Positions 266 to 22,893 of a stretch of 22,893 nucleotides of DNA are shown here, piece after piece. The first letter of the stretch is position 1; each line of letters opens with the position of its first letter. Source of the stretch: a virus; the IMG/VR virus record IMGVR_UViG_3300012037_000016, positions 1 through 22,893 of that record; one strand, 5' to 3'. The position numbers and the translations under genes were made by a program. The notes beneath the pieces were generated by a model, which was not told where the DNA came from, ran no database searches, and was given only the letters and a program-made list of their open reading frames with translations.

Positions 266-274
266 TGATATACT
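266..274 (+). promoter_or_regulatory. Extended -10 promoter for the small terminase
   Basis: TGATATACT matches the recurring TGnTATAAT box with one mismatch. It ends 13 bases before the ATG at 288, so the transcript would have only a short leader of roughly 6-7 bases. No Shine-Dalgarno sequence lies in between. Confidence 0.6.
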
Positions 275-287
275 GTGTTCAATTAGT

Positions 288-776
288 ATGGCTTCAAAAC
301 GCAAGAAAATTGAATACAAGGGAAAATCCTGCTGGCAATATCCATCTGGCATGATCAAAGACGTGAAAACAGGCCAGATCATCAAAGCTGGAGTGGGGAA
401 AATTGGAGTGCCACAGATCCGCATTGAAGATCGCAACATCTTGATCATGGCTGATCTGAAGTACGCATTTGGAATTGATTGCAACGTCAGTGAAGCGTGC
501 GTGTACGCAGGGATTGTGCCAGCCACGTTGCGCCGCATGTTTGAAGACAATCCAGAATTTGCCGCCGAATGTGCCAAGCTGAAGAATCAGACGGTGCTTG
601 ATGCACGTGCTACGACAGCCACTGCTGTGAAAGAAGATCCCCGTGCGGCCATGGCGTTTCTATTCAAGAAGCGCGGCAGTGAGTTTGCTGACAGCGTGAT
701 TGATGCACATCGCAAGATTGAGCCAGTGCGTGAGATAACCAGAAAAGTATTGCCACATGCAAACGCTAGTGAATAG
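288..776 (+). CDS. Terminase small subunit (TerS)
   Basis: A 162-aa protein that probably binds the phage packaging site and loads the large subunit. The frame is open further upstream to a TTG at 249, but the ATG at 288 is preferred because it follows the extended -10 box at 266-274 and begins a typical basic N-terminus (MASKRKKIEY). The middle (roughly residues 65-95) reads as a helix-turn-helix: NVSEACVYAGIVPATLRRMF, like the DNA-binding part of many small terminases. A helical segment of the oligomerisation type follows, ending in MAFLFKKRGSEFAD, a pattern typical of the family. It sits directly before the large subunit and overlaps its start by 20 bases. The assignment rests on the HTH pattern, size and position. 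Confidence 0.8.
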   Translation: MASKRKKIEYKGKSCWQYPSGMIKDVKTGQIIKAGVGKIGVPQIRIEDRNILIMADLKYAFGIDCNVSEACVYAGIVPATLRRMFEDNPEFAAECAKLKNQTVLDARATTATAVKEDPRAAMAFLFKKRGSEFADSVIDAHRKIEPVREITRKVLPHANASE

Positions 777-2229
777 ATCCATGCTGGAACAACAGGCGGA
801 TGAATCAGAGATCCAAGATCTTGAAGATTTGATGTATCCAGTAGAAGAACTGCGTGATGAAGATGGCAGGCACATTGAGTGGATCGCCACGCCGACACAG
901 GATGAAGCATTGCTGATGCTTGAAGATCCAGTGATTGAAGAACTGATGTTTGGCGGTGGAGCTGGTGGAGCGAAAACGTATCTTGGCTGTACGTGGATCA
1001 TCCAGTCAGCATTGCGCTATGAGCGCACACGATGGCTGATAGCGCGTAATGTGCTGCTAGAGCTAGAGCAATCAACCTTGCTGACTTTTTGGGACGTGTG
1101 CCGTGATTTTGGGCTTGAAGAAGGGCGTGACTACAAGTACAACATCATCAAGCACACAGTCACTTTCAAGCAATCGAAATCAGTGGTGTATTTGAAGGAA
1201 TTGAAATACATGCCGCGTGATCCGCACTATGACAGATTGGGATCTTTTGAGTACACAGGTGTATTCATTGACGAATCACAGCAGGTGCGTGAAAAGGCCA
1301 AAGAAGTGCTGAAAACTAGAATCAGATACAAGCTGGCGATCAATGGATTGATTCCAAAGATGCTGCTGACATGCAACCCTTCCAAGGGATTTTTATACAA
1401 GCAATTCTACAAGCCCTTCAAAAGTGGCAAACTACCAGCACACAGATCCGTTGTGCTATCGCTGGCCAAGGATAATCCCTTCATTGATCCGTCATACATT
1501 TCCAACTTGGAAAAATCAGACAAGAATACCAAGCAGCGTTTGTTGTTTGGCAATTGGGAATATGATGATGATCCAGATGCACTGATCAGCTTTGATGCGA
1601 TCAGCGATCTATACACCAACACAACCGCTTCATTGACGTGGCGCGATGATGGCACGATTGATTGGAACATTGTGAAGCGGCCAGATCTAGCGATCAGCTG
1701 TGACGTTGCGCGCTATGGTCAAGATAAAACCGTGATCATGCTGTGGTACAAGCTGCAGGTGATTGGCATTTGGGTGTATGACAAAACCAGCATCCCCACT
1801 GTTATCAAAGAAGTCAGCCGCATTGAACGGGAATACAATGTGCCGCGATCCAAGATCGTGATTGATGATGATGGGATCGGTGGTGGTGTTTCTGATGGTC
1901 TGCGTGGCTGTAAGAAATTCAATGCCAATGCATCGCCAAAGCCAAAGAAGGAAAACTACATGAACTTGAAAGCGCAGTGTGGATATCATCTGGCCACACA
2001 GATTGAAAGCAGAATGCTTGGCATCGACTGTGACAACATTGATATCCAGAATATGATCAATGAAGAATTGGAGCAGCTGAAAACAAAGGACGCTGACAAA
2101 GACGGGAAGCGGAAGCTAGTGCCAAAGGATGAAATCAAAGTGCTGCTTGGCCGATCACCCGATTTCCTAGATGCGATGATCATGGGAATGTACTTCCACG
2201 TAGTGCCAACGCCAAAGTACAGTACATAG
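757..2229 (+). CDS. Terminase large subunit (TerL), ATPase-nuclease
   Basis: The 490-aa packaging motor, which pumps DNA into the prohead and cuts concatemers. Residues 66-74 hold a Walker A loop (GGGAGGAKT). Residues 168-173 hold Walker B with the catalytic Glu (GVFIDES). LLTCNP (203-208) fits the coupling motif. The C-terminal RNase H-like nuclease shows acidic residues in three expected blocks: SCDVARYGQDK (Asp316), IDDDGIGGG (Asp370-372) and SPDFLDA (Asp469, Asp472). The length is normal. The ATG at 757 overlaps the TerS gene by 20 bases. An in-frame ATG at 781, four bases after the TerS stop, is an equally possible start and would remove eight residues. No clear -10 box or Shine-Dalgarno sequence precedes either, so coupling to TerS translation is likely. 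Confidence 0.95.
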   Translation: MQTLVNRSMLEQQADESEIQDLEDLMYPVEELRDEDGRHIEWIATPTQDEALLMLEDPVIEELMFGGGAGGAKTYLGCTWIIQSALRYERTRWLIARNVLLELEQSTLLTFWDVCRDFGLEEGRDYKYNIIKHTVTFKQSKSVVYLKELKYMPRDPHYDRLGSFEYTGVFIDESQQVREKAKEVLKTRIRYKLAINGLIPKMLLTCNPSKGFLYKQFYKPFKSGKLPAHRSVVLSLAKDNPFIDPSYISNLEKSDKNTKQRLLFGNWEYDDDPDALISFDAISDLYTNTTASLTWRDDGTIDWNIVKRPDLAISCDVARYGQDKTVIMLWYKLQVIGIWVYDKTSIPTVIKEVSRIEREYNVPRSKIVIDDDGIGGGVSDGLRGCKKFNANASPKPKKENYMNLKAQCGYHLATQIESRMLGIDCDNIDIQNMINEELEQLKTKDADKDGKRKLVPKDEIKVLLGRSPDFLDAMIMGMYFHVVPTPKYST

Positions 2230-2239
2230 CTATTGATGA

Positions 2240-2248
2240 TGGTATAAT
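2240..2248 (+). promoter_or_regulatory. Extended -10 promoter for the portal gene
   Basis: TGGTATAAT, a perfect extended -10 box, ends 9 bases before the ATG at 2258. The predicted start point is within about three bases of the start codon, giving a nearly leaderless mRNA. There is no Shine-Dalgarno sequence. Confidence 0.75.
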
Positions 2249-2257
2249 ATCTGCACT

Positions 2258-4411
2258 ATGAAGCATATCCCTTTTTCAAAACGACTTGGCATGGCAGCTG
2301 ATGCAATCCGCGGCAAAAGCGCAGTGTCAGATGAACGTGGCTGGAAGGATCTGACTGGCACATCAGAAGGCAACCGTGAGTGGAATGAATTGGAGCTATT
2401 GGAACACTATTCAAAATCAGTGTATGTATTCCGTGCAATCAAAATCATTGCAGAGCGAATGAGTGCCGTACAGTACGATCTACACAGGATCGCCAACAGC
2501 CAAGGTGACGTTGAAGAAGTGCTGATGCATGAAGTGCTTGATGTTATGGCACGGCCAAACCGATTCCAGACATGGCCGCAATTGGTCAAGATCAATATCA
2601 CAAACAAGCTGCTGGCTGGTGAATCGTATCTGTACAAGGTGCGTGATGGCCGCGGTCAAGTTGTGGAGCTTTGGAACATACGGCCAGACTTGATGCAGCC
2701 GATCAAATCCAAATCAAACTGGATCAATGGATACGAATTTCAGACACAGGGCGCAAAAGAATTCTTTGCTGTAGAAGATATCATCCACAACTTTGATGTG
2801 AATCCAGTGGATAACCGCGGCGGACGTTCACCATTGATGGCCGCGAAGTCACGTGTGCAGGTTGAACTGTACGCAAACGAATACCAGCGTGACTTCTTTT
2901 TGAATAACGCACGGCCAGATGGATTGCTTGTATCTGAAGAAACGATGGGTCAAGAACAAAAGGATGACGCCAAAGAAGATTGGAATGATCAGAACCGTGG
3001 ACGCGGCAACAACAGCAAGATTGCTTTTCTTGAAGGCGGTCTGAAATACCAGCAAGTGTCTACATCACAGCGTGAAATGGACTACATCGAATCAATGAAA
3101 TTCACCCGTGAAGATATCTTGGTTGCATTTGGTGTACCAAAGGAATTGATGATTTCAGAAGGTACTGGCTTGGCCACTGGAACAAATGCCATGGATTCAT
3201 TCTTGGAAATGACGATTGATCCAGAAGTGCGGCAACTGTTTGAAGGCATCAATGAACAACTGGTGCGGCAAGATTTTGGTGCTGAATTCTACATCCAGCC
3301 AGAATCAGTGATCCCCGAAAAGCGCGAAGCAATGATTGCGGAGTTTGAAAAGGGCGTAGATAAATGGCTGACACGAAATGAAGCACGTACACTGCTTGGA
3401 CTTGAACCAGTAGACGGTGGTGATTTCTTATACACACAATTTGGCAATGTGGAGCTTGGCACAAAAGGCGCACAGATCGCTGAAGCAAAGCGTCACGTGA
3501 AGGCACTTGGCGGCGCACACGTATTCCGTGGACGGCCACAGCTACACAAGCGGCTAGTGCTTGAAGAAACGCTGACAAAGGCAGTGACAGCTGCTGTGTC
3601 AAAAGCTATGAGCAAGAAGAAAACCAAAGAAGTGAAAGCTGATGATGATGCACCCAAAAAGATTTCATTGATCAAAGGCAAGAAGGTGCGTGCGCAGTAT
3701 GAATCCAACATGAACAAGGGAATTGATCGCCGTGCTGCTGGATACCGTCAAGCGCTATCCAAGATGTTTGAAGATCAAGAATCACGTGTGGTTGAAACTG
3801 CAAAAAGTATTGTTGAAGAAAACGTGACAGATCCAACTGCACTGAAGGACATCTGGCAATCAGATCTTGAAGTGGAGATCTTCACTGAAGAAATCATGCC
3901 AACAATGCAGGCCATCGCACAAGATGCAGGTCAAGAAGGCAACAAGCTGATCAGTGATGCCACAAAAGACGTGGATGATTTTGTGATCACTACCGTGCTG
4001 CAAGAAATCTTGAATGAGCGTGCCAAGCTATTTGCTGGCAGTGTGAGCGAAACCACATTTGCTGCTATCGCTGATCAAGTGATCGCTGGACTGGATGAAG
4101 GTGAAGATGTGAATCAGATCAGCACACGTATACGATCTGTATACACAGACATCAACAAAGTACGCGCTGGATTGATTGCACGTACTGAATCCACTTTCGC
4201 CAACAACGCTGGCTTCCAAGCATCGTTTGCACAATCAAAGGTGGTCAATGGAAAAGAGTGGATTGCAACCAAGGATGAACGCACACGGCCTGCACACGCA
4301 GCAACTGATGGTGAGATCGTGGAAGTCAATTCAACCTTCAGCAATGGCCTAGACTATCCACAAGAACCAAACTGCCGCTGCGTTATTGCGCCAGCACTTA
4401 TTCAAGCGTGA
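2258..4411 (+). CDS. Portal protein fused to a MuF-type C-terminal domain
   Basis: A 717-aa fusion. Residues about 1-410 look like an HK97-type portal, the dodecameric ring through which DNA enters and leaves: an N-terminal region with YVFRAIKIIAERMSAVQYDL, then YEFQTQGAKEFFAVEDIIHN, and a segment on the order of FGVPKELM. After a Lys-rich linker (about 450-480) a long helical region leads to the MuF signature at about 667-708: EWIATKDERTRPAHAATDG followed by EPNCRC. MuF-type proteins (Mu gpF, SPP1 gp7) bind the portal and are packaged inside the head. Portals alone are usually 400-500 aa, so the extra 300 residues are a real fusion. The TGA stop at 4409-4411 doubles as the first three bases of the next gene's extended -10 box. 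Confidence 0.9.
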   Translation: MKHIPFSKRLGMAADAIRGKSAVSDERGWKDLTGTSEGNREWNELELLEHYSKSVYVFRAIKIIAERMSAVQYDLHRIANSQGDVEEVLMHEVLDVMARPNRFQTWPQLVKINITNKLLAGESYLYKVRDGRGQVVELWNIRPDLMQPIKSKSNWINGYEFQTQGAKEFFAVEDIIHNFDVNPVDNRGGRSPLMAAKSRVQVELYANEYQRDFFLNNARPDGLLVSEETMGQEQKDDAKEDWNDQNRGRGNNSKIAFLEGGLKYQQVSTSQREMDYIESMKFTREDILVAFGVPKELMISEGTGLATGTNAMDSFLEMTIDPEVRQLFEGINEQLVRQDFGAEFYIQPESVIPEKREAMIAEFEKGVDKWLTRNEARTLLGLEPVDGGDFLYTQFGNVELGTKGAQIAEAKRHVKALGGAHVFRGRPQLHKRLVLEETLTKAVTAAVSKAMSKKKTKEVKADDDAPKKISLIKGKKVRAQYESNMNKGIDRRAAGYRQALSKMFEDQESRVVETAKSIVEENVTDPTALKDIWQSDLEVEIFTEEIMPTMQAIAQDAGQEGNKLISDATKDVDDFVITTVLQEILNERAKLFAGSVSETTFAAIADQVIAGLDEGEDVNQISTRIRSVYTDINKVRAGLIARTESTFANNAGFQASFAQSKVVNGKEWIATKDERTRPAHAATDGEIVEVNSTFSNGLDYPQEPNCRCVIAPALIQA

Positions 4412-4417
4412 TATAAT
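4409..4417 (+). promoter_or_regulatory. Extended -10 promoter for the prohead protease, made from the portal stop codon
   Basis: TGATATAAT, where the TGA is the portal stop codon. The box ends 10 bases before the ATG at 4428. This favours 4428 as the start over an in-frame upstream codon at 4386, which lies inside the portal gene. Confidence 0.75.
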
Positions 4418-4427
4418 ATCTAGCAAT

Positions 4428-5246
4428 ATGAAGCCAACACAAACAACACTACAATTTGAAACACTTGGAATCGACAAAGAGAAATTCACTGTGGATGGTG
4501 TATTCAGCACAGACGATACTGATCGTCATGGTGACGTAGTGAAGCAAGATGGCTGGCTGCTAGAAAACTACATGAAGAATCCAGTGATTCTTTTTGGTCA
4601 CAATCATTGGGATCTACCAATTGGGAAGATGATCAAGCTGTCAGTTGAAGAAAAGGATGGCAAGTCACAGCTAGTTGGAACAATCCAATTTGCTGCTGAA
4701 GAATATGAGCTAGCAAAGACAATCTTCAATTTGTATGCAGGTGGATACATGAAGGCATTTTCAGTTGGATTCCGAAACTTGGAACGGTCACGCGCTGTGC
4801 GGCCTGCTGAAGAAGGTGACGATTCTGAAGAACGGGAGCGATCATACAGCGTGCTTGAAGTGAATGAGCTATTTGAAGTATCTGCTGTACCAATTCCAGC
4901 CAACGCCAACGCGCTTGTGAAGGCGGCAGAAGATGGTGTGGAACTTGGAGCGTACAAGAAGGGATTGGAAAATCTAGTTGACACAAAGATGTCAATCTTC
5001 AGTAGTGAGCATGAACGTACCATTGTGGATGCAATGGATGCGATCAAGCAATTTGCTGATACAATGAAGGACACACAAGCAACTGATACCGCTGTTGAAA
5101 CAAAAAGTGCCGCAAGCACATCCCCTCGCAGCAAGGGCAGTGATCAAGCAAAAGCCAAAGCAAGCCCACGTTTGCTGCGCGCAAAAGCTGTTCACAGGGT
5201 CAATCGTGCAATCCGCGTGATGGCCAAGGTGAAGAAATCACTATAA
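4428..5246 (+). CDS. HK97-type prohead maturation protease
   Basis: A 272-aa serine protease of the U35/S78 (HK97 gp4) family, which cleaves the scaffold part of the capsid protein during head maturation. Visible marks are the N-terminal STDDTDRHGDVVKQDGW, the catalytic His region ILFGHNHWDLPIGK (His58), the catalytic Ser region AFSVGF (Ser112), and ELFEVSAVPIPANANALV, which closes the fold at about residues 147-164. The last 50 residues are disordered-looking and strongly basic (Arg and Lys rich). They may anchor the enzyme to the very acidic scaffold segment of the capsid protein encoded next door; that is inference. The start is set by the promoter box at 4409-4417. Confidence 0.92.
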   Translation: MKPTQTTLQFETLGIDKEKFTVDGVFSTDDTDRHGDVVKQDGWLLENYMKNPVILFGHNHWDLPIGKMIKLSVEEKDGKSQLVGTIQFAAEEYELAKTIFNLYAGGYMKAFSVGFRNLERSRAVRPAEEGDDSEERERSYSVLEVNELFEVSAVPIPANANALVKAAEDGVELGAYKKGLENLVDTKMSIFSSEHERTIVDAMDAIKQFADTMKDTQATDTAVETKSAASTSPRSKGSDQAKAKASPRLLRAKAVHRVNRAIRVMAKVKKSL

Positions 5247-6598: not shown

Positions 6599-6620
6599 TC
6601 ACTGACTACCAAATAAAAAG

Positions 6621-6644
6621 GCCGCACGTGGGTGCGGCTTTTTT
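6621..6644 (+). terminator. Rho-independent terminator after the capsid gene
   Basis: GCCGCAC (6621-6627), a GTGG loop, then GTGCGGC (6632-6638) form a perfect 7-bp GC-rich stem followed by six Ts. It lies 22 bases after the capsid stop and just upstream of the next extended -10 box, so the head operon ends here and the fibre gene is transcribed afresh. Confidence 0.9.
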
Positions 6645-6655
6645 AGTGTGTGGCG

Positions 6656-6664
6656 TGGTAAAAT
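6656..6664 (+). promoter_or_regulatory. Extended -10 promoter for the fibre gene
   Basis: TGGTAAAAT ends 9 bases before the ATG at 6674 and directly follows the terminator at 6621-6644. The same nine bases recur at 18038 and 18760. Confidence 0.7.
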
Positions 6665-6673
6665 ACAGACACT

Positions 6674-8839
6674 ATGGATCAGCTAAAAAATCTAATCAAA
6701 GTCACGCTGACAGCTGGCATCAATGCTACTGATACTTCAATTGTTCTATCATCATCAGATGCTGCCAAGCTGCCAGATCCAGACAATGGTGAGTACAACT
6801 TGCTGGTGTGGAATGAAACTGATTTCCCCAATGCGTATGAAGATCCGAAAGCGGAGTTTGTGCGCGTGATTGAAAAAACCAGCAACACATTCACGATTCA
6901 GCGGCCAGCAGAAGGCAATGCGTACAATGGCGAAGGCACAACCAACACTGCACGCACACACAACAAAGCTGACAAAGTGTTTGCGGCTGCCATCGTAGTA
7001 TCTGCCAAACTATTCAATGACATCCAAACGGATCTTGATCGCAAAGCAGACATTGATCATCTGCATGATGATCGCTACTACATCAAAGCCACAGTGGATT
7101 CAGCATTGGCACTGAAGGCCGCAGCTGTACACACACACGCTTTGAATGAAACAGTTGGACTTGTGGACGCTTTGGCCGCAAAAGCCGCTACAGCGCACAC
7201 ACACACCATCACAGACGTGGTTGATCTTGATACTGAACTGGCATCCAAAGCTGAATCAACCCACACGCATGATGATCGGTACTTCACAGAAACAGAAGTG
7301 ACGGCATTGCTGACTGGAAAAGCTGCTGCAAGCCACAACCACAATGATCTGTACTACACGGAATCTGAAGTGGATGGATTTCTTGCCGCCAAAGCCGCAG
7401 CATCACACAATCATGACGATCTGTATTTCACTGAAGCTGAAGTGACAGCACTACTGGCAACAAAGGCAGCTTTGAATCATGATCATGATTCTGACTACGC
7501 GACACCAGCACAGGTGACTGCAGCTGTAGCAGGCAAGGCAGACGCATCACACAGCCACACAGCAGCCAACATCAGCGACTTTGATGCAGAAGTGGACGCG
7601 AATACCAATGTGACTGCAAACACGTCACACAGGTCAAATACAGCCAATCCACACGGTGTGACAAAGCAGCAAGTTGGACTTTCAAACGTGATCAATACAC
7701 TGCAGCTGGTAGCTGCGGATGTGCAGGACGTTTTGACATCTACTGATGCTGATGTGCCGCTATCTGCAAACCAAGGCCGCGTGCTGAAGGGATTGATTGA
7801 TACTGTGAACACGGTACTTTCAAGCGACACAAACGCACTGGATACGCTACAAGAAGTGGTGGATTTCATTGAAGCAAACAAAGCGACACTGGATGCGCTT
7901 GCAATTGGATCTATCGCTGGCCTGCAGGCAGCACTGGATGCCAAAGCGGATCTGAATCACACACACAGTCAGTACGTGCAGAACACTGGCAATGAATCAA
8001 TTGCTGGCAACAAAACTTTTGCTGGTGATATTGCAATGAGTGATAGCACATTGGTGCTAGACAAAGACAAAGGATTTGTGCTGGATGATTACAACCGCAA
8101 CGGCAGAAACCACATTTGGGCAGTATCAAAGCAATATCCAGATTTTGGAATTTCATACTTTGAAGGCGCTACTGATGATATCCGATTCCATTCATCTGGA
8201 AATCCACTAGCGCCAGAATTCAGAATCACTGGATTTGGTGATGGATATTTTGGACGCGACATGCACGCAGTACGCAATGCGATCATTGGCGGCAGTGTCA
8301 CAATCGCTGATGATGCTTTTGATGCCGCAGATTGGAACGGCAATCTGACTGTGCCAACAAAGAATGCTGTGCGCGATAAGATGGAGCTGATCGAAGCGGA
8401 GATTGCAGGCAGGGCAGCAGCTAGCCATTCACACGCAATTGCTGATGTGGATGATCTTCAGACTACGCTTGATGGTAAGGCAGCGGCATCGCATACGCAC
8501 GCACAGTCAGAGATCACAGGATTGACTGCATCACTAGCTGCGAAAGCAAACACATCGCACACACATGCAATTGCGAACATCACTGGACTTGATACCGCGC
8601 TTGGTGACAAAGCCAACGCCACACACACACATGACATTGACGATACATCTGGATTGACAGATGCACTTGCTGGCAAAGCAGCAACCAGTCACGGTCACAG
8701 TGATGCAACCAGTGGAGCTGCAGGATTTATGAGTGCCACAGACAAAGCAAAGCTGGATACATACGTGAACCGCATCACAGTGGCAGCAATCGCACCATCT
8801 TCACCAGCCACAAATGATATTTGGATTGATACTAACTAG
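6674..8839 (+). CDS. Large phage fibre protein with two stacks of HxH repeats
   Basis: A 721-aa adhesin-type fibre. Residues 1-120 form an N-terminal attachment-like domain. Two repeat stacks follow, each built on an HxH motif in units of 22 or 24 residues: HxH at 129, 153, 175, 197, 221, 245, 269 and 293, then, after a globular middle region (about 300-580) with one isolated HxH at 429, at 585, 607, 629, 651 and 673. Units look like AKAAASHNHDDLYFTEAEV. In T4 gp37, HxH motifs in the trimeric needle bind iron, so these stacks probably form a metal-pinned trimeric rod. The C-terminus ends APSSPATNDIWIDTN, a common fibre ending. Its place between capsid and connector genes is unusual for a tail fibre; a head fibre is possible. 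Confidence 0.85.
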   Translation: MDQLKNLIKVTLTAGINATDTSIVLSSSDAAKLPDPDNGEYNLLVWNETDFPNAYEDPKAEFVRVIEKTSNTFTIQRPAEGNAYNGEGTTNTARTHNKADKVFAAAIVVSAKLFNDIQTDLDRKADIDHLHDDRYYIKATVDSALALKAAAVHTHALNETVGLVDALAAKAATAHTHTITDVVDLDTELASKAESTHTHDDRYFTETEVTALLTGKAAASHNHNDLYYTESEVDGFLAAKAAASHNHDDLYFTEAEVTALLATKAALNHDHDSDYATPAQVTAAVAGKADASHSHTAANISDFDAEVDANTNVTANTSHRSNTANPHGVTKQQVGLSNVINTLQLVAADVQDVLTSTDADVPLSANQGRVLKGLIDTVNTVLSSDTNALDTLQEVVDFIEANKATLDALAIGSIAGLQAALDAKADLNHTHSQYVQNTGNESIAGNKTFAGDIAMSDSTLVLDKDKGFVLDDYNRNGRNHIWAVSKQYPDFGISYFEGATDDIRFHSSGNPLAPEFRITGFGDGYFGRDMHAVRNAIIGGSVTIADDAFDAADWNGNLTVPTKNAVRDKMELIEAEIAGRAAASHSHAIADVDDLQTTLDGKAAASHTHAQSEITGLTASLAAKANTSHTHAIANITGLDTALGDKANATHTHDIDDTSGLTDALAGKAATSHGHSDATSGAAGFMSATDKAKLDTYVNRITVAAIAPSSPATNDIWIDTN
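7056..7560 (+). repeat. First HxH repeat stack in the fibre gene (72/66-bp period)
   Basis: Eight HxH motifs spaced 24, 22, 22, 24, 24, 24 and 24 codons apart, so the DNA repeats imperfectly with a 66- or 72-base period. Several HTH motifs are encoded by CACACACAC runs. Copies differ by many silent and replacement changes. Confidence 0.8.
8424..8700 (+). repeat. Second HxH repeat stack in the fibre gene (66-bp period)
   Basis: Five HxH motifs at exactly 22-codon spacing (residues 585, 607, 629, 651 and 673), with units on the pattern KAxAxxHTHAxxxITGLxxxL. The period is more uniform than in the first stack. Confidence 0.8.
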
Positions 8840-10604: not shown

Positions 10605-10613
10605 TGTTATAAT
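10605..10613 (+). promoter_or_regulatory. Extended -10 promoter for the 66-aa gene (leaderless spacing)
   Basis: TGTTATAAT ends exactly 6 bases before the ATG at 10620, so a standard start point would be the A of the start codon itself. It decides this start over an in-frame ATG at 10572 inside the preceding gene. Confidence 0.75.
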
Positions 10614-10619
10614 GGCAAC

Positions 10620-10820
10620 ATGATTGGCATTCCACTTGGATCACAAATACTTGGCGCGGTGCATGGACGGGCATCAGCTGAATCATTGCCGCCGTATTCC
10701 CCACTGGCTGCCATCGTGTACACGGCTGGCCAGCCAGTCACCAGCAAAGAAGATGGTGTATTTGAAAAGATCACAGGCCGCACCACACCAAAGGAAAATC
10801 CATACAGTAGCAAGCGTTGA
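10620..10820 (+). CDS. Small virion-cluster protein of unknown function
   Basis: A 66-aa protein starting MIGIPLGSQILGAVHGRASA and ending in a Lys/Arg-rich tail. No membrane segment or known domain is recognised. An in-frame ATG at 10572 lies inside the gene before it; the start at 10620 is chosen because a perfect extended -10 box sits six bases upstream. It belongs to the group of genes between the capsid and connector genes, so a minor head, decoration or cement role is a guess from position alone. The TGA stop (10818-10820) directly abuts the next promoter box. Confidence 0.6.
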   Translation: MIGIPLGSQILGAVHGRASAESLPPYSPLAAIVYTAGQPVTSKEDGVFEKITGRTTPKENPYSSKR

Positions 10821-10829
10821 TGTTATAAT
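10821..10829 (+). promoter_or_regulatory. Extended -10 promoter for the first head-tail connector gene
   Basis: TGTTATAAT begins on the base after the TGA stop at 10818-10820 and ends 9 bases before the ATG at 10839. Confidence 0.75.
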
Positions 10830-10838
10830 ATATTCACT

Positions 10839-12127: not shown

Positions 12128-12133
12128 TATAAT
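12125..12133 (+). promoter_or_regulatory. Extended -10 promoter made from a stop codon, before the tail terminator gene
   Basis: TGATATAAT, with TGA being the stop of the gp10-like gene. It ends 8 bases before the ATG at 12142. Confidence 0.75.
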
Positions 12134-12141
12134 ATAAACAC

Positions 12142-12567
12142 ATGAGCTATCGACTATTACATCAAGCAGTTGTAGACAAATTGAAAGCAACCACTGGCAT
12201 CACTGATCTAGCGGTTGATATAAACTACGCGCACACCAAATTCACTGGCTTCCCTTCCATTGCCGTTGCCAATTCCAGCAATGAAAATGACTACCAAGCA
12301 AACGATGCACGGCGGCGCACATACGGCTTCAGCATCTATGTCTACGATCTTTTCAATGACAATGACGATTATGAAGCCAGCGTGAAGAAGGTTGAAGATC
12401 TGATGGATCAAGTCATTGAAGTATTCAATTCATCCGATGCGCTGCAACCAACGGCGCTTCAAACGCAGCCAGTGCCAGCGTCATTGATCACAACTGATGC
12501 TGGTGATGAAGGTGTGTACACAGTTGGCGAAGTCATTGTGCGGTGTACCGTATATGAAGGATGCTAG
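12142..12567 (+). CDS. Tail terminator / tail completion protein
   Basis: A 141-aa protein placed just before the tail tube gene, where tail terminators (lambda gpU, SPP1 gp17 type) normally lie. The N-terminus reads as a helix for subunit docking (LLHQAVVDKLKATTGIT). The segments FTGFPSIAVANSSNENDY and RRRTYGFSIYVYD, then a helix KKVEDLMDQVIEVFNSSDAL and a closing strand VGEVIVRCTVY, give the alpha-beta alternation of that family. It would cap the tail and join it to the neck. The evidence is pattern and position, without a decisive motif. Confidence 0.65.
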   Translation: MSYRLLHQAVVDKLKATTGITDLAVDINYAHTKFTGFPSIAVANSSNENDYQANDARRRTYGFSIYVYDLFNDNDDYEASVKKVEDLMDQVIEVFNSSDALQPTALQTQPVPASLITTDAGDEGVYTVGEVIVRCTVYEGC

Positions 12568-12569
12568 CG

Positions 12570-12578
12570 TGATATAAT
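12570..12578 (+). promoter_or_regulatory. Extended -10 promoter for the 65-aa gene
   Basis: TGATATAAT ends 7 bases before the ATG at 12586. Here the TGA is not used as a stop; the previous gene ends with TAG at 12565-12567. Confidence 0.75.
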
Positions 12579-12585
12579 ATCTGTA

Positions 12586-12783
12586 ATGATTGAATCATAC
12601 CAAAACAAATCAATCGGGAAATCACCACGAACAAAATCAGCGAAAGCTGGCAAGCGTTCTGCTGTTGGATCAGCGGTGAAAACGGGAATGAAGTCATATT
12701 CATTTCCGTCTGTTGGACGTACAGTGAAAGCTGGAAGTTTGGCAGAAGCAACCAAAATTATAAATAAAGAATCTAAAGAATAA
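12586..12783 (+). CDS. Small, highly basic protein of unknown function
   Basis: A 65-aa protein rich in Lys, Ser and Gly (for example KSPRTKSAKAGKRSAVGSAV) with almost no hydrophobic core, so it is probably partly disordered. No known domain is recognised. It has its own perfect extended -10 box and abuts the tail tube gene two bases downstream. Small basic proteins at this place could be tail accessory or nucleic-acid-binding proteins, but nothing in the sequence decides it. Confidence 0.6.
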   Translation: MIESYQNKSIGKSPRTKSAKAGKRSAVGSAVKTGMKSYSFPSVGRTVKAGSLAEATKIINKESKE

Positions 12784-13769: not shown

Positions 13770-13790
13770 CAAACCTAACTATTGAGAATT

Positions 13791-14147
13791 ATGATTGAAG
13801 CAACAACGCAAACGATCACAACTGACATCTGCAAAGCGGAGATTGTTGTGAAGGATTGGATCACTGCCAAAGAGCAGCAGACAATCCAGAACGTGATCTT
13901 TGCAAAGATGAAGATGGATGTGTCACCAGCCGCACAGCGCGATGGTTTACCAGCCACAAGCGGCATTGATCCAGCTGCCGCTGTAGAAATGCAGAACAAA
14001 AGCGTTGAAACATACGTTGTGAGTGTGAATGGCGATGAAAAGAACAAGCTGCAGAATCTGCTATCAATGCCAGATGCTGACTTCCAGCAAGTGATTGATC
14101 ACGTCAATTCCCTTGATGCAAAAAAAAATTCACAAACTACCAACTAA
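13791..14147 (+). CDS. Tail assembly chaperone, unshifted form (gpG-like)
   Basis: A 118-aa protein between tail tube and tape measure genes, where the lambda G-type chaperone lies. The ATG at 13791 is chosen over an in-frame TTG at 13782. It opens with MIEATTQTITTDICKAEIVV and ends just after a run of nine As, reading KKNSQTTN then TAA at 14145-14147. The body has the marks of the class: a beta N-terminus, a TAKEQQTIQNVIF helix, and a C-terminal helix LLSMPDADFQQVIDHVNSL. Most ribosomes should make this product, which would coat or fold the tape measure protein during tail assembly. Confidence 0.8.
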   Translation: MIEATTQTITTDICKAEIVVKDWITAKEQQTIQNVIFAKMKMDVSPAAQRDGLPATSGIDPAAAVEMQNKSVETYVVSVNGDEKNKLQNLLSMPDADFQQVIDHVNSLDAKKNSQTTN

Positions 14148-14281
14148 TCGTTGATCTGTGTTTGGAGATGAAGTGGGATTTTCATACCTACATGGCGCAA
14201 CCTGCATGGTTTATCAATGCAATAGTTGCGGAGTTGAATGATCGCGCAACAGAGATCAAGAAACGTAGCAAAAGAAAATAA
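13791..14281 (+). CDS. Tail assembly chaperone, -1 frameshifted form (gpGT-like)
   Basis: If ribosomes slip back one base on the A run at 14120-14128, the frame continues to TAA at 14279-14281, giving a protein of about 163 aa. The extension reads TNYQLIVDLCLEMKWDFHTY then MAQPAWFINAIVAELNDRAT and a basic tail. The pattern of a Trp, a Tyr, then QPxWF and a closing helix is what I expect of T-type extensions in siphophage chaperones. It fills what would otherwise be a 136-base gap before the tape measure gene, which begins two bases after this stop. Programmed -1 frameshifting is known in lambda G/GT and many other tailed phages. The shift itself is inferred, not observed. Confidence 0.82.
14120..14128 (+). 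promoter_or_regulatory. Slippery sequence for programmed -1 frameshift
   Basis: Nine consecutive As. In the zero frame they read GCA-AAA-AAA-AAT, so A-AAA-AAA (14120-14126) fits the X-XXY-YYZ heptamer. The two tRNA-Lys can re-pair perfectly one base back. Only a weak hairpin (CAAC/GTTG with a five-base loop) lies just downstream, so slippage may depend on the homopolymer alone. Confidence 0.8.
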
Positions 14282-14283: not shown

Positions 14284-16584
14284 ATGAATTCATCTAGCCA
14301 GACAATCAAAGTAGTAGTAGATGCGGAAAACAATACTGCGAAGGCTTTTGCTGCTGTTGAAAAATCAGTAGCAAAAGCAGAAAAAAACATCAGCACGTTT
14401 CAAGATCGACTTGGCAAACTGCAACCGACTTTCCAGAAAATGGCACTGGCAGGAACGGCAGCGTTTGCAGCGATTGGCGCTGGTGCTTTTTCTTTGGCCA
14501 AAGAAGCGGCCAACACGCAACGTACAGCGCAATCATTTGATGCGTTGACGAAAAGTATCGGATCTACACCAGATGCCATCTATGGACTGCGTGAAGCTAC
14601 ACGCGGCCTTGTGGATGATACTGCGCTGATGCAATCGGGATCACGTTTGATTTCAATGGGTCTGGCTGAAACTGAAGATGAAATGAACAAGCTATCTGAA
14701 ATGGCTGTGAAGCTAGGATCAGCGATGGGAAATGAAGCCACGCCATCAATGGAAAACTTTGCACTTATGCTTGCAAACCAATCTATTCTGCGATTGGATA
14801 GTTTTGGTATTTCTGGTGCGAAGGTACGTGAACGGATCTTGGAGCTGACTACTGGCACAAACGCACTGACACGCGAACAAGCATTCATGCAGGCTACAAT
14901 GGAAGAAGGGGAAAAATCAATGGCGCGGCTTGGTGACACTAGCAACACAGCTGGTGAAAAGATGCAGGCGATGCAAGCCAACATCATCAATATGCGAAAT
15001 GAAGTGGGGAATGCATTGATTCCAATTCTTGAAGATCTGATGGAAATACTGACACCAATCATCAAAGCAGTCAGCAACTTTGCCAAAGAGAATCCACAGC
15101 TGGTGAAAACACTGGTGATCGTGTCGCTGGCTGTAGCTGGCGTTGTAGCAGTGCTTGGAACGCTTGGAATTGCCTTGTTTGGGGTCACAAATGCCATTGT
15201 TGGTATGAAGGGTGCTGTCATGACAATAGTTGTCGTACTGAAGAAGTTTGCGGCACTAGGACTTGCAGGTGGAGTGGTTGCAGTGGCACTTGCTGCAGTG
15301 GCCGCACTGATTGGATACGTGATCTTCAAGCTGTACGAATTTGGAAAAGAAGTTGGCGGCATTGGCAACGCATGGTCACTGACTGTTTTGAATATGGAAA
15401 TCAAATTCTGGAAGTTTGTGCAGACTGTGGTGACGGGGATTGATAACATCTTCAGCAAGATTCCAGGTTTGGGATCTGTGTTTGGTGAAACAATAGACAA
15501 TATCAATAGCAAGATCACTGATGCTGAAGCTAACTTTGATTCATTGGCCGTGCAGGGCATCCAAGCAGCTGCAGATGAAGGAAAAGACTTTGGAGCTACA
15601 ATGACAGATGCACTGTCACAAATCACTTCTGGACTTGATCTAGCAGGCAGCACAGGTGAATCTATGGCAGACAAGATGGATGAATCCTTCACAGCTACTG
15701 TGGAAGGCATCAAAGAGATCCGCGATGAAATCACTGCCACGTGGGATGATATCAATGCGGCTGTTTCGCAGTACCGTGACAGCACGGCTGATGAAGAATC
15801 TAGTCACCAAGATAAGGTGGTGAAACTAGTGGCAAACGCAAAAGACAAACTGAAGGATCTTGAATCTGACATGCGTGATGCCAAGAAGGATGATGATGCA
15901 GCTGACATCAAGCGAATCCGTGAGCAGATGGAAGCGCAAGAAGATATCATCACATCATACAAGCGGAGTGATCTGCAGCTGGATGAAGAAATCAGTGAGC
16001 AACGGCGATTCCTGCAGAAGAATGAATTTGAGCAATTGCAAGAACTACATGACAAAAAACTGCTATCAATGCAGAAGGAATTTTTGACAGATCAAGTATT
16101 CAAACTGCAGAAGCTGGTGCTGCTAAAGCAGGAACACGGGCAGATCATGAACACAATTTCATCACAGGAACGTGCTGTGATCGAAGCGGAGATCAGCAAA
16201 TCAAAGACATTCCGTGAGCAACTGGACTTCCAGAAAAAAGGGCTTGGCACTTGGATGGATCAGACTGTCAGCATGTATGAAGATTATGTGAAGCAGGTCA
16301 ATTCCACATTGTCTGATATCAAAAGCGATGGTGGCGGATCTTCACGCGGCAAACGTGCTGCAGGTGGATCAGTGGCTGCCAATTCCCCGTACACAGTTGG
16401 TGAAAAAGGCGCAGAAACATTTGTGCCATCTACATTTGGCCGCATCATTTCAGCTGATCGAAGCATGGGCGGCGGAAATACAACTGTAGTATTCACTGGC
16501 AATACCTTCATGGATGAAGAAGATGTGGCTGAAAAAGTTGGTGACAAAATTGCGCGGACACTAAAGGATAATATGCGCGTATAA
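14284..16584 (+). CDS. Tape measure protein
   Basis: A 766-aa protein that sets tail length and is ejected with the DNA. It opens with NSSSQTIKVVVDAENNTAKA and a coiled segment, as is standard for the family. Residues about 95-240 carry the TP901/phage-tail tape measure pattern (ALMQSGSRLISMGLAETEDE, FGISGAKVRERILELTTG). A strongly hydrophobic stretch at about 273-300 and 309-348 would insert in membranes. Residues about 455-640 are charged coiled coil. The C-terminus has AAGGSVAANSPYTVGEKGAE then TFVPSTFGRI, a very typical tape measure ending. No lytic domain is seen. At about 0.15 nm per residue the tail would be near 115 nm. It begins two bases after the frameshifted chaperone stop. Confidence 0.92.
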   Translation: MNSSSQTIKVVVDAENNTAKAFAAVEKSVAKAEKNISTFQDRLGKLQPTFQKMALAGTAAFAAIGAGAFSLAKEAANTQRTAQSFDALTKSIGSTPDAIYGLREATRGLVDDTALMQSGSRLISMGLAETEDEMNKLSEMAVKLGSAMGNEATPSMENFALMLANQSILRLDSFGISGAKVRERILELTTGTNALTREQAFMQATMEEGEKSMARLGDTSNTAGEKMQAMQANIINMRNEVGNALIPILEDLMEILTPIIKAVSNFAKENPQLVKTLVIVSLAVAGVVAVLGTLGIALFGVTNAIVGMKGAVMTIVVVLKKFAALGLAGGVVAVALAAVAALIGYVIFKLYEFGKEVGGIGNAWSLTVLNMEIKFWKFVQTVVTGIDNIFSKIPGLGSVFGETIDNINSKITDAEANFDSLAVQGIQAAADEGKDFGATMTDALSQITSGLDLAGSTGESMADKMDESFTATVEGIKEIRDEITATWDDINAAVSQYRDSTADEESSHQDKVVKLVANAKDKLKDLESDMRDAKKDDDAADIKRIREQMEAQEDIITSYKRSDLQLDEEISEQRRFLQKNEFEQLQELHDKKLLSMQKEFLTDQVFKLQKLVLLKQEHGQIMNTISSQERAVIEAEISKSKTFREQLDFQKKGLGTWMDQTVSMYEDYVKQVNSTLSDIKSDGGGSSRGKRAAGGSVAANSPYTVGEKGAETFVPSTFGRIISADRSMGGGNTTVVFTGNTFMDEEDVAEKVGDKIARTLKDNMRV

Positions 16585-16585
16585 T
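16580..16585 (+). promoter_or_regulatory. -10 promoter overlapping the tape measure stop codon
   Basis: TATAAT contains the TAA stop (16582-16584) of the tape measure gene and ends 6 bases before the next ATG at 16592, exact leaderless spacing. The upstream TG of the extended form is missing (GCG instead). Confidence 0.7.
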
Positions 16586-16591
16586 ATATCT

Positions 16592-18037
16592 ATGGCATTT
16601 CAAATCACTATTGGCGGAGTGGATCGCACAAAAGAAATCAAGCGCACCAACTTCAAGATCAATGACATCATCAATAATCGGGTAGACACCTGCAGCTTCA
16701 AGATTGAAAAAGTATCTGCTGGCGGCTACGCACCAGCACTGAATGCGGAAGTGATTGCGCTTCTTGATGGTGAACGGATCTTTGGCGGCAACGTGTCGCA
16801 GTGTGGAGTACGCACCATTGGAAGCACAAAGGCCGTCACGCTTGATGTGAAGTGTGTTGGCTTCAAGCATCAATTCAGTAAGATGTTGGTCACAGATCGT
16901 TTTGAAGATATGACAGCCAACGCGATCATCACAGCGCTGATGGCTGACTATGGTGACGGCTTCACAATGGCGAACGCCGCGGCAGATGTGCAGATTGATT
17001 CAATTGCATTCAACCGAATCCCATTGAGCGATGCCATCAATAAATTGGCAGGGCTGATCAATTACAGCTGGTATATCGACTACAACAAAGATCTGCATTT
17101 TTTCCAGAAAAACAGCAAAACATCTGCATTCAATATCGCTGATGATTCAGCCAACTATGTGTTTGAATCACTTGAAGTCACCAAAGATATATCACAGATC
17201 CGAAACAGCATCTTTGTGCAGGGTGGTGAAGAACGTGGTGAACCGCGGATTGAAACGTATGTTGTAGAAGAAGGTCAAACCACATTCCCACTGGCCAACA
17301 AGTTTGCAGAGCAACCAGATGTGGAAGTGGATGGCATCGCACAGACAGTGGGTGTTGACTTCAAAAGTGAAGATGCTGATTTTGAAGTGCAGTGGAACTT
17401 CAATCAAACGTATATCAAATTTACGGATGGCAATGAGCCAGCCACAGATGCTGAAGTCACTATTGAAGGAATACCGCTATTCCCTATTCTTGTGAACGTG
17501 CCTTCACCAGTATCCATTGGCGAATTTGGACGCTTTGAATTCAGTATTGTGGATAAAACGATCAAGTCACGGGGTCAAGCTGTGGAACGTGCGCTGGCGG
17601 AGCTGCAAGCATACGGTGGTCAGATCAGTGAAGGATCATTCCGCACACACGTTGGCGGATTGCGGTCTGGTCAAATCATCAATATCAATTCAGATCTGCG
17701 TGGCATCGCAGAAGATTTCTTGATTCAAAAAGTCAGCTTCAGCGTGATCAATGATGTGGTTGAAGGTGACATTGTGGAAAAGTATTTGTGGGAAGTGGAT
17801 CTGGCTACACTGAAAACAGTGGGGATCATTGCCATCATGCAGCGGCTATTGCTGCAAGAAGAACTGTCTGAAGGTGAGCAGGAATCACTGCTGACATATC
17901 TTGAATTTGCTGACAGGGCAGTGATATCTGATTCACTGGATTCTATCGCAGGCCAGCCGAATGATTATGTGTACGACAATCCAGAAGGTGATCTGACTGG
18001 CAATACTGCAGAGTATGGCGCTGCTAGCTTTGGATAA
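16592..18037 (+). CDS. Baseplate hub / tail-tip protein (gp27/gpD-like)
   Basis: A 481-aa protein that follows the tape measure gene. The opening ITIGGVDRTKEIKRTNFKI, then RVDTCSFKIEKV and VIALLDGERIFGGNVSQ, is the recurring start of hub proteins related to phage late control protein D and T4 gp27. Next comes DRFEDMTANAIITALMADYG and the segment INYSWYIDYNKDLHFF, also family marks. An inserted beta region (about residues 215-300) and a C-terminal domain with RAVERALAEL-like and LRSGQIININSDLRG segments complete a hub. It would sit at the tail tip and anchor the tape measure and fibres. No peptidoglycan hydrolase domain is seen. Confidence 0.82.
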   Translation: MAFQITIGGVDRTKEIKRTNFKINDIINNRVDTCSFKIEKVSAGGYAPALNAEVIALLDGERIFGGNVSQCGVRTIGSTKAVTLDVKCVGFKHQFSKMLVTDRFEDMTANAIITALMADYGDGFTMANAAADVQIDSIAFNRIPLSDAINKLAGLINYSWYIDYNKDLHFFQKNSKTSAFNIADDSANYVFESLEVTKDISQIRNSIFVQGGEERGEPRIETYVVEEGQTTFPLANKFAEQPDVEVDGIAQTVGVDFKSEDADFEVQWNFNQTYIKFTDGNEPATDAEVTIEGIPLFPILVNVPSPVSIGEFGRFEFSIVDKTIKSRGQAVERALAELQAYGGQISEGSFRTHVGGLRSGQIININSDLRGIAEDFLIQKVSFSVINDVVEGDIVEKYLWEVDLATLKTVGIIAIMQRLLLQEELSEGEQESLLTYLEFADRAVISDSLDSIAGQPNDYVYDNPEGDLTGNTAEYGAASFG

Positions 18038-18046
18038 TGGTAAAAT
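18038..18046 (+). promoter_or_regulatory. Extended -10 promoter for the 84-aa gene
   Basis: TGGTAAAAT begins on the base after the TAA stop at 18035-18037 and ends 6 bases before the ATG at 18053, giving leaderless spacing. Confidence 0.7.
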
Positions 18047-18052
18047 ATAGAT

Positions 18053-18307
18053 ATGAAAAGCGCTTCAGTAAAACAATCAAAGAAATGGGATGTGCAAACC
18101 AACGTGCGCACAGGCAAAAAGATGGTGGTTGAAACCGCTGAAGTGTCGAAGTCACGGCGCATGATTGATCCAAAAGAGATCCGAAAACAGATCCAGATCT
18201 GCAATCGTAACATTGAAAAATTCCGTGATCGCAAAGATATGTTGAAGGAAATGCTTGAAGATGCCAAGGTAGCTGAAGAAGCTGATTCTAAATTCACTGC
18301 AAAATAG
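18053..18307 (+). CDS. Small charged coiled-coil protein
   Basis: An 84-aa, highly charged protein. Residues about 38-80 (IRKQIQICNRNIEKFRDRKD onward) form a clear amphipathic helix with heptad-like spacing, so an oligomer through a coiled coil is likely. No domain is recognised. It lies between the hub gene and two tail-tip proteins and starts with its own extended -10 box, so a tail-tip chaperone or small structural part is possible, but the function is unknown. Confidence 0.6.
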   Translation: MKSASVKQSKKWDVQTNVRTGKKMVVETAEVSKSRRMIDPKEIRKQIQICNRNIEKFRDRKDMLKEMLEDAKVAEEADSKFTAK

Positions 18308-19807: not shown

Positions 19808-19816
19808 TGGTATAAT
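19808..19816 (+). promoter_or_regulatory. Extended -10 promoter for the 107-aa membrane protein
   Basis: TGGTATAAT ends 9 bases before the ATG at 19826 and starts 12 bases after the TAG at 19793-19795. There is no Shine-Dalgarno sequence. Confidence 0.75.
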
Positions 19817-19825
19817 GTTGGTACT

Positions 19826-20149
19826 ATGGATATCACAGTGTCATTCAATCCCCTTTTTGCTGTAGCCGCTGCCGTGATCTTCACAGTTGGATTCATTTGC
19901 GGTGTATTATACAACCGCAAACATCGTGGCGATGATATCAATCTGCCGCACATCGCACACGCTTCCGTTGTATTCATGGGGATCATCATCGCACCATTTT
20001 CAGTGCTGATCGAATTGAACATCAGCACAACCGCTGTTGCATTCTGGATCGCTTCCGCACTGGCATTCTATGGAGTGGATGCAGGCGTGATGGCTGGCAA
20101 ATTCTTTGATGCTGCAATCAGCAGCCGCGGCACAGCTAACAAAAAATAA
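19826..20149 (+). CDS. Small membrane protein with three predicted membrane segments (holin candidate)
   Basis: A 107-aa protein with hydrophobic spans at about residues 9-30 (NPLFAVAAAVIFTVGFICGV), 46-66 (ASVVFMGIIIAPFSVLIEL) and 69-91 (TTAVAFWIASALAFYGVDAG). A basic loop with NRKHRGDD separates the first two, and the C-terminus is basic. Size and topology fit a class I holin, and the gene lies two genes ahead of the lysin. The hydrophobic spans are plain; the holin role is inference. Another holin candidate lies downstream at 22105, and one of the two may be an antiholin or have another job. The stop at 20147-20149 abuts the next ATG. Confidence 0.6.
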   Translation: MDITVSFNPLFAVAAAVIFTVGFICGVLYNRKHRGDDINLPHIAHASVVFMGIIIAPFSVLIELNISTTAVAFWIASALAFYGVDAGVMAGKFFDAAISSRGTANKK

Positions 20150-20789: not shown

Positions 20790-20798
20790 TGCTATAAT
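20790..20798 (+). promoter_or_regulatory. Extended -10 promoter for the lysin gene (leaderless spacing)
   Basis: TGCTATAAT ends exactly 6 bases before the ATG at 20805, so the transcript is predicted to start at the A of the start codon. It would let the lysin be expressed independently. Confidence 0.75.
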
Positions 20799-20804
20799 AT
20801 AAAT

Positions 20805-22094
20805 ATGAAAACATTGTACCGACTTGTTGTGAGCGCAAAGCCAATCACTGATGATCTGATTGATCGTCAAACGCAAGCTGATGGCATCATGAGAATTCCA
20901 GATCAGCTGAATATTGTGACGGAATTTGCATACATCCCAAACATGCTGGATGGCGCTGTGCTTGAATCTGACAAAGACATTGATGAAAAGTGGCTGAAGG
21001 CTGCTGTGAATCGTTTAGACTATCACTGGATTCACCTGCACATGGATGATGATCAATGGCGTGATCTTGGATTGCGCAATACGTTGTGGGGTCAGCAGCG
21101 GACTGTTGGCGGCCAAGTGGTCAGCTATGGCCGATGGAGTGAAGATGGCAGATACCAAACGTCACATCGTTATGAATCGCCAGTGTCTGAATTGCCAGAA
21201 GAAGCGCTTGGAGTGTGGCATGAAGGATGTCACGGATTCAATGGCATTCTTGGTGCATCATCAATTGCACTGACACATTCCATGTTCTATGGATATGATC
21301 GACTGTATACCAAAGCTGAAGAAAAGAAGCTGAAGCCGCGGCGATACGTCAAAACGCCGACACCATTGCTAGCTTGGCGATCACTTCAGTGGGGTAGATT
21401 GCCAGAGCTTGAAACGCGGAAGGCAAAGCCAGTCAAAGCGTACGGAATCGAAATTGAACAAAAGCTGCTTGATAACGGCAGCGCATCGCCGCAATGGTGG
21501 ACTGGCAATTCTCCAAAGTCATTGGTGCTTCACACCACACGTGGCGATGATGCAGGGCTTGGATCGTGGGCATGGCTGGATCAGATTGAACTGTCATACC
21601 ACTTCATCATTGCTTCAGACGGCAAGATATACCAACTAGTACCATTTGGTTGCAGTGCGTGGCACGCAGGGATCTATTCAAACCCAACTGCCGCAGTTGA
21701 AGCATTCTTCAATGGTGAGAATCCAAACCGATTATCAATCGGGATCGCATTTGCGCGCAACGCACAGGCGCGGCTGACAGATGATCAAGTAGTAGCATTT
21801 GTTGGACTGGCAAAGATCATTGGCCAGCATACAGGCGTACACTATTCTGCAGCCAACATTTTCAGCCACATAGACATTTCAGATCACAAGCCAGCTGAAG
21901 TGCGCGACTACCGATGGCAGTGCTTGGATGCGTTGCAAGGTGATCGTGAACCAGATCCAGTAGCGCCGCCAGAACCAGATCCAGTGATCATTGATACAGC
22001 CACATTGTTTGCTGCCATTGATACTGAAGCGCTGCTGATGCTGGCGAAGCTGATGCTTCAAGAAGCGGCACGGCGTGGCCAATTACAATCATAA
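20805..22094 (+). CDS. Two-domain endolysin: HExxH-containing N-terminal domain plus Amidase_2 domain
   Basis: A 429-aa lysin. The C-terminal half (about 235-375) is a type 2 N-acetylmuramoyl-L-alanine amidase: SLVLHTTRGDD (His243, first zinc ligand), YHFIIASDGKIYQLVPFG (classic), AWHAG (His287), NRLSIGIAF, and SHIDISDHKP (His355). The usual final Cys/Asp ligand region reads DHKPAEVRDYRWQC, which is unusual, and the Lys-Asp-Pro-Gly motif is not seen. The N-terminal half (1-200) contains HEGCH at 139-143, an exact HExxH zinc-peptidase motif, in EALGVWHEGCHGFNG, with His158 or Asp165 as possible third ligands. This suggests a second, peptidase-like cutting activity, though no family is recognised. 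A proline-rich linker at 383-394 leads to a short helical tail. Confidence 0.85.
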   Translation: MKTLYRLVVSAKPITDDLIDRQTQADGIMRIPDQLNIVTEFAYIPNMLDGAVLESDKDIDEKWLKAAVNRLDYHWIHLHMDDDQWRDLGLRNTLWGQQRTVGGQVVSYGRWSEDGRYQTSHRYESPVSELPEEALGVWHEGCHGFNGILGASSIALTHSMFYGYDRLYTKAEEKKLKPRRYVKTPTPLLAWRSLQWGRLPELETRKAKPVKAYGIEIEQKLLDNGSASPQWWTGNSPKSLVLHTTRGDDAGLGSWAWLDQIELSYHFIIASDGKIYQLVPFGCSAWHAGIYSNPTAAVEAFFNGENPNRLSIGIAFARNAQARLTDDQVVAFVGLAKIIGQHTGVHYSAANIFSHIDISDHKPAEVRDYRWQCLDALQGDREPDPVAPPEPDPVIIDTATLFAAIDTEALLMLAKLMLQEAARRGQLQS

Positions 22095-22711: not shown

Positions 22712-22781
22712 GGCAGAGATGCCATTCTCAATGGTTGTTCACTCAATCCAAGAAGGCCGCACAGCAATGTGTGGCTTTTTT
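22712..22781 (+). ncRNA. Possible short non-coding RNA ending in a terminator
   Basis: A -10-like TACAAT at 22700-22705 would start transcription near 22712. The first bases, GGCAGAGATGCC (22712-22723), form a perfect 4-bp stem with a GAGA tetraloop, and the transcript would end about 70 bases on, at the terminator at 22756-22781. The only open frame is 24 codons from 22719 and reads through the terminator. This is a candidate only. Confidence 0.25.
22756..22781 (+). terminator. Rho-independent terminator at the end of the gene block
   Basis: GCCGCACA (22756-22763), loop GCAA, then TGTGTGGC (22768-22775) form an 8-bp stem with one G-T pair, followed by six Ts. It resembles the terminator after the capsid gene, including the GGCCGCAC core and the GGCTTTTTT end. 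Confidence 0.88.
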
Positions 22782-22829
22782 GTGTCGAGGTAGCAAAGAG
22801 CCTTATTTTTCAACGTATCTCGTGTACTT

Positions 22830-22847
22830 GTGGGGTCACTTCCCCAC
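22830..22847 (+). other. Perfect 6-bp inverted repeat in the non-coding end
   Basis: GTGGGG (22830-22835), six-base loop TCACTT, then CCCCAC (22842-22847). No T run follows, so it is not a simple terminator. It lies upstream of the promoter box cut off at the window end and may be an operator or RNA hairpin. Confidence 0.4.
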
Positions 22848-22859
22848 TTCCGTGTGTGT

Positions 22860-22880
22860 CCCTTTTCGCTTCAGAAGGGG
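22860..22880 (+). other. Imperfect hairpin upstream of the final promoter box
   Basis: CCCTTTT (22860-22866) pairs with GAAGGGG (22874-22880) using two G-T pairs across a seven-base loop. It is the second hairpin in the 194-base non-coding end and abuts the truncated -10 box. Confidence 0.3.
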
Positions 22881-22886
22881 TCAAAG

Positions 22887-22893
22887 TGATATA
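22887..22893 (+). promoter_or_regulatory. Extended -10 box truncated by the window end
   Basis: TGATATA, the first seven bases of the recurring TGATATAAT box, forms the last bases of the window. A further + strand gene probably begins within about 20 bases beyond the edge. Confidence 0.45.

Follow-up and report, generated by a model that had tools for sequence, protein, structure and literature searches.

Extended -10 boxes placed at start codons in a tailed-phage family lacking Shine-Dalgarno sequences are probably promoters of near-leaderless mRNAs

Introduction

The structural genes of phages are normally described as sharing one late promoter, or a few, and as being translated with the help of Shine-Dalgarno sequences. 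The metagenomic virus record IMGVR_UViG_3300012037_000016, which has no cultivated isolate, raises the question of whether structural genes can instead carry promoters fused to their start codons. The stretch analysed here, called the window, covers 22,893 nt (22.9 kb). It represents a tailed phage's structural half, and every gene is on the + strand. The original prediction saw TGnTATAAT-like boxes directly before many ATGs and proposed a mostly leaderless late region with a promoter for each gene.

The window begins with a small terminase gene (terS, ATG at 288, assigned by position and synteny) and a large terminase gene (757), followed by genes for a portal-MuF fusion (2258-4411), an S78 prohead protease (4428-5246), an HK97-type major capsid protein (5264-6598) and a tail-fibre-like protein (6674-8839). 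Downstream lie a tail-terminator-like gene (12142), a tail protein (12786), a tail assembly chaperone-like gene (13791), the tape measure (14284), further tail genes, and an amidase endolysin (20805-22094). Near-identical contigs lengthen the window, and one of them, L085, contributes 12.6 kb of early region encoding a DnaD-like helicase loader, Sak4, an exonuclease, an RNase H-like protein, RusA and a PIF1-like helicase. The portal is common to about 38 further contigs, mostly at 35-48% identity, and a 32-kb relative, G023, has proteins mostly 35-69% identical to those of the window phage.

Results and discussion

Exact extended -10 boxes are concentrated immediately upstream of start codons. 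TGnTAWAAT occurs 12 times on the + strand of the window and never on the - strand (1.6 expected on both strands), a count never reached in 100 shuffles, so the TGnTATAAT-like element of a sigma70-type extended -10 promoter is present repeatedly and always in the sense of the genes. Boxes with one mismatch are not enriched as a whole set (21 vs 17.2 expected), and thus the signal comes from the exact forms. At 10/25 starts, the ATG has an exact box 4-12 nt upstream, with spacings of 6-10 nt, compared with 0/521 other + strand ATGs (Fisher p=5e-15); the motif search proposed with the original prediction accordingly shows enrichment at starts and none at other ATGs. An eleventh start, at 16592, has a plain TATAAT without TGn at a gap of 6 (16580..16594), overlapping the TAA that ends the tape-measure gene.

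All eleven boxes listed earlier between 266 and 20790 are present where they had been placed, and the gap of exactly 6 nt claimed for four genes is correct. Besides 16592, these are the starts at 10620 (box and ATG 10605..10622), 18053 (18038..18055, box TGGTAAAAT) and the endolysin at 20805 (20790..20807), all on the + strand like the sites that follow. Four genes have a gap of 9, namely the portal-MuF gene (2240..2260), the tail-fibre-like gene (6656..6676, again TGGTAAAAT), and the genes starting at 10839 (10821..10841) and 19826 (19808..19828). The gap is 10 at the protease (4409..4430), 8 at the tail-terminator-like gene (12125..12144) and 7 at 12586 (12570..12588). The protease and tail-terminator boxes each overlap the TGA that ends the gene before (the portal gene in the former case), such that the stop codon doubles as the TGn of the box.

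Several sites depart from this pattern. The box at 266 (266..274, +) is present 13 nt before the terS ATG, in the weak form TGATATACT. The box at 18760 does stand 22 nt before an ATG, but it lies inside the upstream gene and does not fit, nor does one at 22224, which is also within a gene. A truncated box reported at 22887 is not real, as the sequence at this place in the overlapping contig L085 is TGATACATCACTT and no ATG follows. In 5,996 shared bases, the two sequences differ only at 22892, adjoining the window end, and this single difference creates the apparent box; the next gene in L085 past that end reads TGGTACAAT-6-ATG. The major capsid gene (5264), which is likely highly expressed, has no canonical box (a TAACAT ends 7 nt before its ATG), which we count against a general scheme; it is presumably read from the protease transcript.

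Shine-Dalgarno sequences are absent from the starts of the window, as had been claimed. Starts pair less well with the anti-Shine-Dalgarno sequence than internal ATGs do (-0.09 vs -1.57 kcal/mol), and pairing below -4.5 is found at 0% of starts and 11% of internal ATGs. The other long relatives likewise have weaker pairing at starts than within genes, and none of those examined has an excess of Shine-Dalgarno sequences at its starts. The same procedure applied to Geobacillus phage GBK2 as a positive control recovers a strong signal (-7.4 vs -1.8).

The boxes recur over a phage family with just 35-55% protein identity, often at the same genes, especially those for the portal and the head protease. 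In G023, the orthologues of the portal, protease, endolysin (TGCTATAATAAAAATATG) and 10839 genes have boxes, the gene corresponding to 12586 is also preceded by TGATATAAT, and terS has TGTATAAT at a gap of 9. Two other relatives, G001 and G021, likewise have boxes before portal and protease, and the 10839 orthologue in G021 is boxed too. Among relatives whose portal start can be read, the majority keep the box, generally 6 nt before the ATG. Portal relatives together have 92 sense and 21 antisense boxes, counted over loci that are not fully independent because some contigs overlap or are near-identical. Where an ATG lies downstream of a relative's box, gap 6 is the commonest (27 sites), followed by gap 8 (8 sites), with some noise added by taking the first ATG of the longest ORFs as the start; in G001, a 37-kb contig, all eight detected boxes are at gap 6. 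Some single sites are expected to be due to chance, since box-rich relatives are otherwise AT-rich. The lack of overall enrichment of the one-mismatch form could suggest that all boxes are chance AT-rich words between genes. The probability of this explanation is negligible, as it is refuted by the shuffles, the control ATGs and the retention of the boxes in relatives. The trait belongs to the whole phage family and not merely to the late region of the window.

The nucleotides following the box resemble an initiator. In the window, nucleotide 7 after the box is A in 10/11 sites, and nucleotide 6 is a pyrimidine in 10/11. When gap-6 sites are left out, so that the A of ATG is not counted, and identical sites are removed, a pyrimidine-A remains at nucleotides 6/7 in 6/7 window sites (P = 0.0005 with the upstream background and 3e-5 with the whole-window background). 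In the relatives, likewise after removal of identical sites, 14/27 boxes with gaps of 7-12 have it at this position, the top of six offsets with the runner-up at 10. The pyrimidine/purine step that a sigma70-type promoter shows 6-8 nt after its -10 element is thus found here. If the box is a promoter, the start base is expected at a constant distance from it, independent of how far away the ATG lies; such placing is predicted by a transcription start and not by a ribosome-binding element, and as a sequence pattern it favours transcription initiation. The four gap-9 genes all read ...ACT-ATG, and since the pyrimidine-A lies 3 nt before the ATG, their predicted leader is the trinucleotide ACU and not zero. 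Predicted leaders from box spacing span 0-4 nt. A paired -35/-10 scan found none of the boxes up to position 20000, in keeping with an extended -10 promoter of the sigma70 type, which needs no -35 hexamer.

Taken together, the boxes are very probably promoters for the primary (sigma70-type) sigma factor fused to start codons, giving near-leaderless mRNAs, with closely spaced genes served by coupling. Host RNA polymerase would read the boxes without a -35 element and start at the pyrimidine-A 6/7 nt downstream, making the first transcribed base the A of the start codon or a base up to four nt before it. Translation of the resulting leaderless or near-leaderless mRNAs would rely on recognition of the start codon, in a host that uses little Shine-Dalgarno pairing. 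Genes within about 10 nt of a previous stop would have no promoter and would be translated by coupling. A large part of the protein output in this phage family probably comes from mRNAs with almost no leader. Several window starts at gaps of 9-10 count against a stricter version, and complete leaderlessness is predicted for four genes only.

Two other functions of the box have to be weighed against the promoter reading. The box could be a non-Shine-Dalgarno ribosome-binding element, i.e., an AU-rich translation enhancer such as an S1 site, on a long late mRNA, and no promoter. It sits where such a site would, before starts without a Shine-Dalgarno sequence, and the authors of PMC5397173 warn that S1 binding is another possible source of AT bias at -20 to -10. 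However, the conserved word is a complete TGn-extended -10, the pyrimidine-A keeps its distance to the box and not to the ATG, and genes that follow a short intergenic gap and have no box would be in equal need of a ribosome-binding element. We regard this explanation as improbable, and give about the same low weight to a phage-specific late promoter that would be read by a phage-modified polymerase and produce short leaders, comparable to the T4 late element TATAAATA. In favour of the latter, exact boxes in the lineage of the window are nearly limited to the structural half, and several early genes have TAAYNATTGAGA instead. On the other hand, the gap-6 boxes of G001 are scattered over its contig well beyond the portal-capsid cluster, the TGn extension suits primary sigma factors, and no sigma factor or RNA polymerase was recognised among the proteins searched, early proteins included, many early ORFs having no assigned function. 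A phage transcription factor may be among these ORFs. An archaeal leaderless promoter is ruled out by distance, as its TATA box is expected about 25 nt upstream.

Boxed starts stand at intergenic gaps, and this distribution revises the picture of one promoter per gene. The prediction of promoters at ATGs without Shine-Dalgarno sequences is well supported by the position, strand bias, conservation and fixed initiator position of the boxes. In contrast, "nearly each gene" does not hold with about 11/25 starts carrying a canonical box, and "mostly leaderless" is too strong for the same reason, the boxless starts mostly abutting or overlapping the previous stop. Boxed genes begin 7-75 nt after the previous stop, 10/11 of them at 14 or more, whereas 9/12 boxless genes lie within 10 nt of it or overlap it (Fisher p=0.003), a contrast that is partly geometric because a box needs room. 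The close spacing suggests translational coupling, and the boxless genes are probably read from an upstream promoter and translated in this way. The tape measure, with a gap of 136 nt in front of it, is an apparent exception. The gap is accounted for by a -1 frameshift extension of the gene upstream, which is conserved and whose end lies 2 nt before the ATG; with this extension included, the boxless count becomes 10/12. An A9 run (14120-14128) lies at the end of the 13791 gene, from which the -1 frame (14147-14281) runs on to a stop at 14279-14281. G023 has the same A-run, and the product of this frame is strongly conserved there. A programmed -1 frameshift at this run is likely from these features, and frameshifts of this kind are typical of tail assembly chaperones before the tape measure gene. 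Between the capsid gene and the 6656 box, a strong GC hairpin with a T run on one side and an A run on the other (6620..6645, +; z -5.7) has the form of a bidirectional terminator. The layout suggests a picture of nested transcripts, each headed by a leaderless or nearly leaderless gene and continuing into closely spaced genes.

The early half of the window's phage uses the exact box hardly at all, with a single, unplaced copy in the 12.6 kb of L085, which also weighs against the promoter reading. Several early genes of L085 have TAAYNATTGAGA 1-8 nt before the ATG instead, as do genes in G023, and the window contains it once, at 13776. The sites are at 7305, 8573, 8730 and 16197 in L085 and at 9707, 11750 and 16190 (- strand) in L086. 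In the window, the motif forms TAACTATTGAGA-ATT-ATG (13776..13793, +) before the tail assembly chaperone-like gene, and the G023 orthologue is preceded by the same TAACTATTGAGA. It thus directly precedes start codons, in most cases those of early genes, and is conserved between two phages; it may be a variant -10 (nATAAY), an operator or a translation element. A scan of the collection for this second motif gave one match per contig, which is chance level. More tentatively, and with somewhat less than even probability in our estimation, the whole tailed-phage family may lack Shine-Dalgarno sequences and be largely leaderless, each uncoupled gene having its own extended -10 at the AUG so that transcription controls the expression of each gene separately. 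Within one genus, TGnTATAAT (late) and TAAYNATTGAGA (several early) would be two promoter classes that time the cycle, and the host would be one that normally initiates on leaderless mRNA.

Leaderless extended -10 promoters are already known. In lambda, the cI gene read from PRM is a single leaderless phage gene whose transcription starts at the A of AUG, and the structural genes use one late promoter with Shine-Dalgarno sequences. The window phage shares this start at the A of AUG (here predicted), which in lambda concerns one regulatory gene only. T4-type late promoters are numerous, each -10-like without a -35, with leaders that contain Shine-Dalgarno sequences and a requirement for gp55/gp33/gp45. 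Many -10-like elements without a -35 are common to T4 and the window, but gp55/gp33/gp45 were not recognised among the proteins searched here. Two Bacteroidota phages, Flavobacterium phage 11b and Cellulophaga phage phi10:1, have a related large terminase (~40% identity) and also lack Shine-Dalgarno sequences at their starts. Unlike the window phage, phi10:1 has no box enrichment (0.06 vs 0.056), and phage 11b has weak enrichment (6/42), none of the six -10-like matches at its annotated starts being an extended -10. Zheng and colleagues took TA signals about 10 nt upstream to mark leaderless genes, which are widespread and not dominant in bacteria (PMC3160421). In such cellular genomes, as in the window phage, a TA-rich -10 signal lies directly before the start codon and is read as a sign of leaderless mRNA; leaderless genes can exceed 20% there, compared with up to about half of the structural-module starts in this family without Shine-Dalgarno sequences. 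A paper on phage AR9 remarks, without showing it, that phage transcripts are often leaderless (PMC5312081). In the open-access literature, we found no phage family described as this dense in such promoters and devoid of Shine-Dalgarno sequences; the combination looks new, although this search is weak evidence of novelty.

If promoters are indeed fused to start codons across a family, virion production can rest on leaderless mRNA. The fusion would aid gene callers in placing starts in uncultivated viruses, and it provides a natural promoter series with fixed initiator spacing that could be used for testing leaderless translation. It is also a clue to the host, which would be required to translate leaderless mRNA efficiently with little Shine-Dalgarno use. 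A Planctomycetota host was suggested by a portal relative on contig 453 (L041) of a Planctomycetaceae MAG, yet only 3 box-ATG matches occur in this 4.6-Mb genome, and 59 Planctomycetota genomes contain 0-10 each; a MAG binning error is possible. Plasmids of Chlorobiota and Rhodothermota are without the signature (1/49, 1/39, 1/25). Patescibacteria were considered because patescibacterial phages have been reported (PMC13059738) and the window's relatives are almost only metagenomic; genetic code 25 is unlikely, since the standard code gives long ORFs without interruptions.

The element also occurs outside this phage family, in other environmental phages. A scan for TGNTATAATAAANATATG found at least two in sense at 28/78 loci of such phages, mostly beside Shine-Dalgarno sequences. 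At four of their loci (L238, L252, L265 and L281), the box TGnTATAATAAAnATATG precedes a conserved gene of ~225 aa, which, judged by eye, resembles a 2-oxoglutarate oxygenase. Among the relatives of the window phage, the 75.7-kb G013 (L213 and L214) has about 20 tRNA genes in a cluster.
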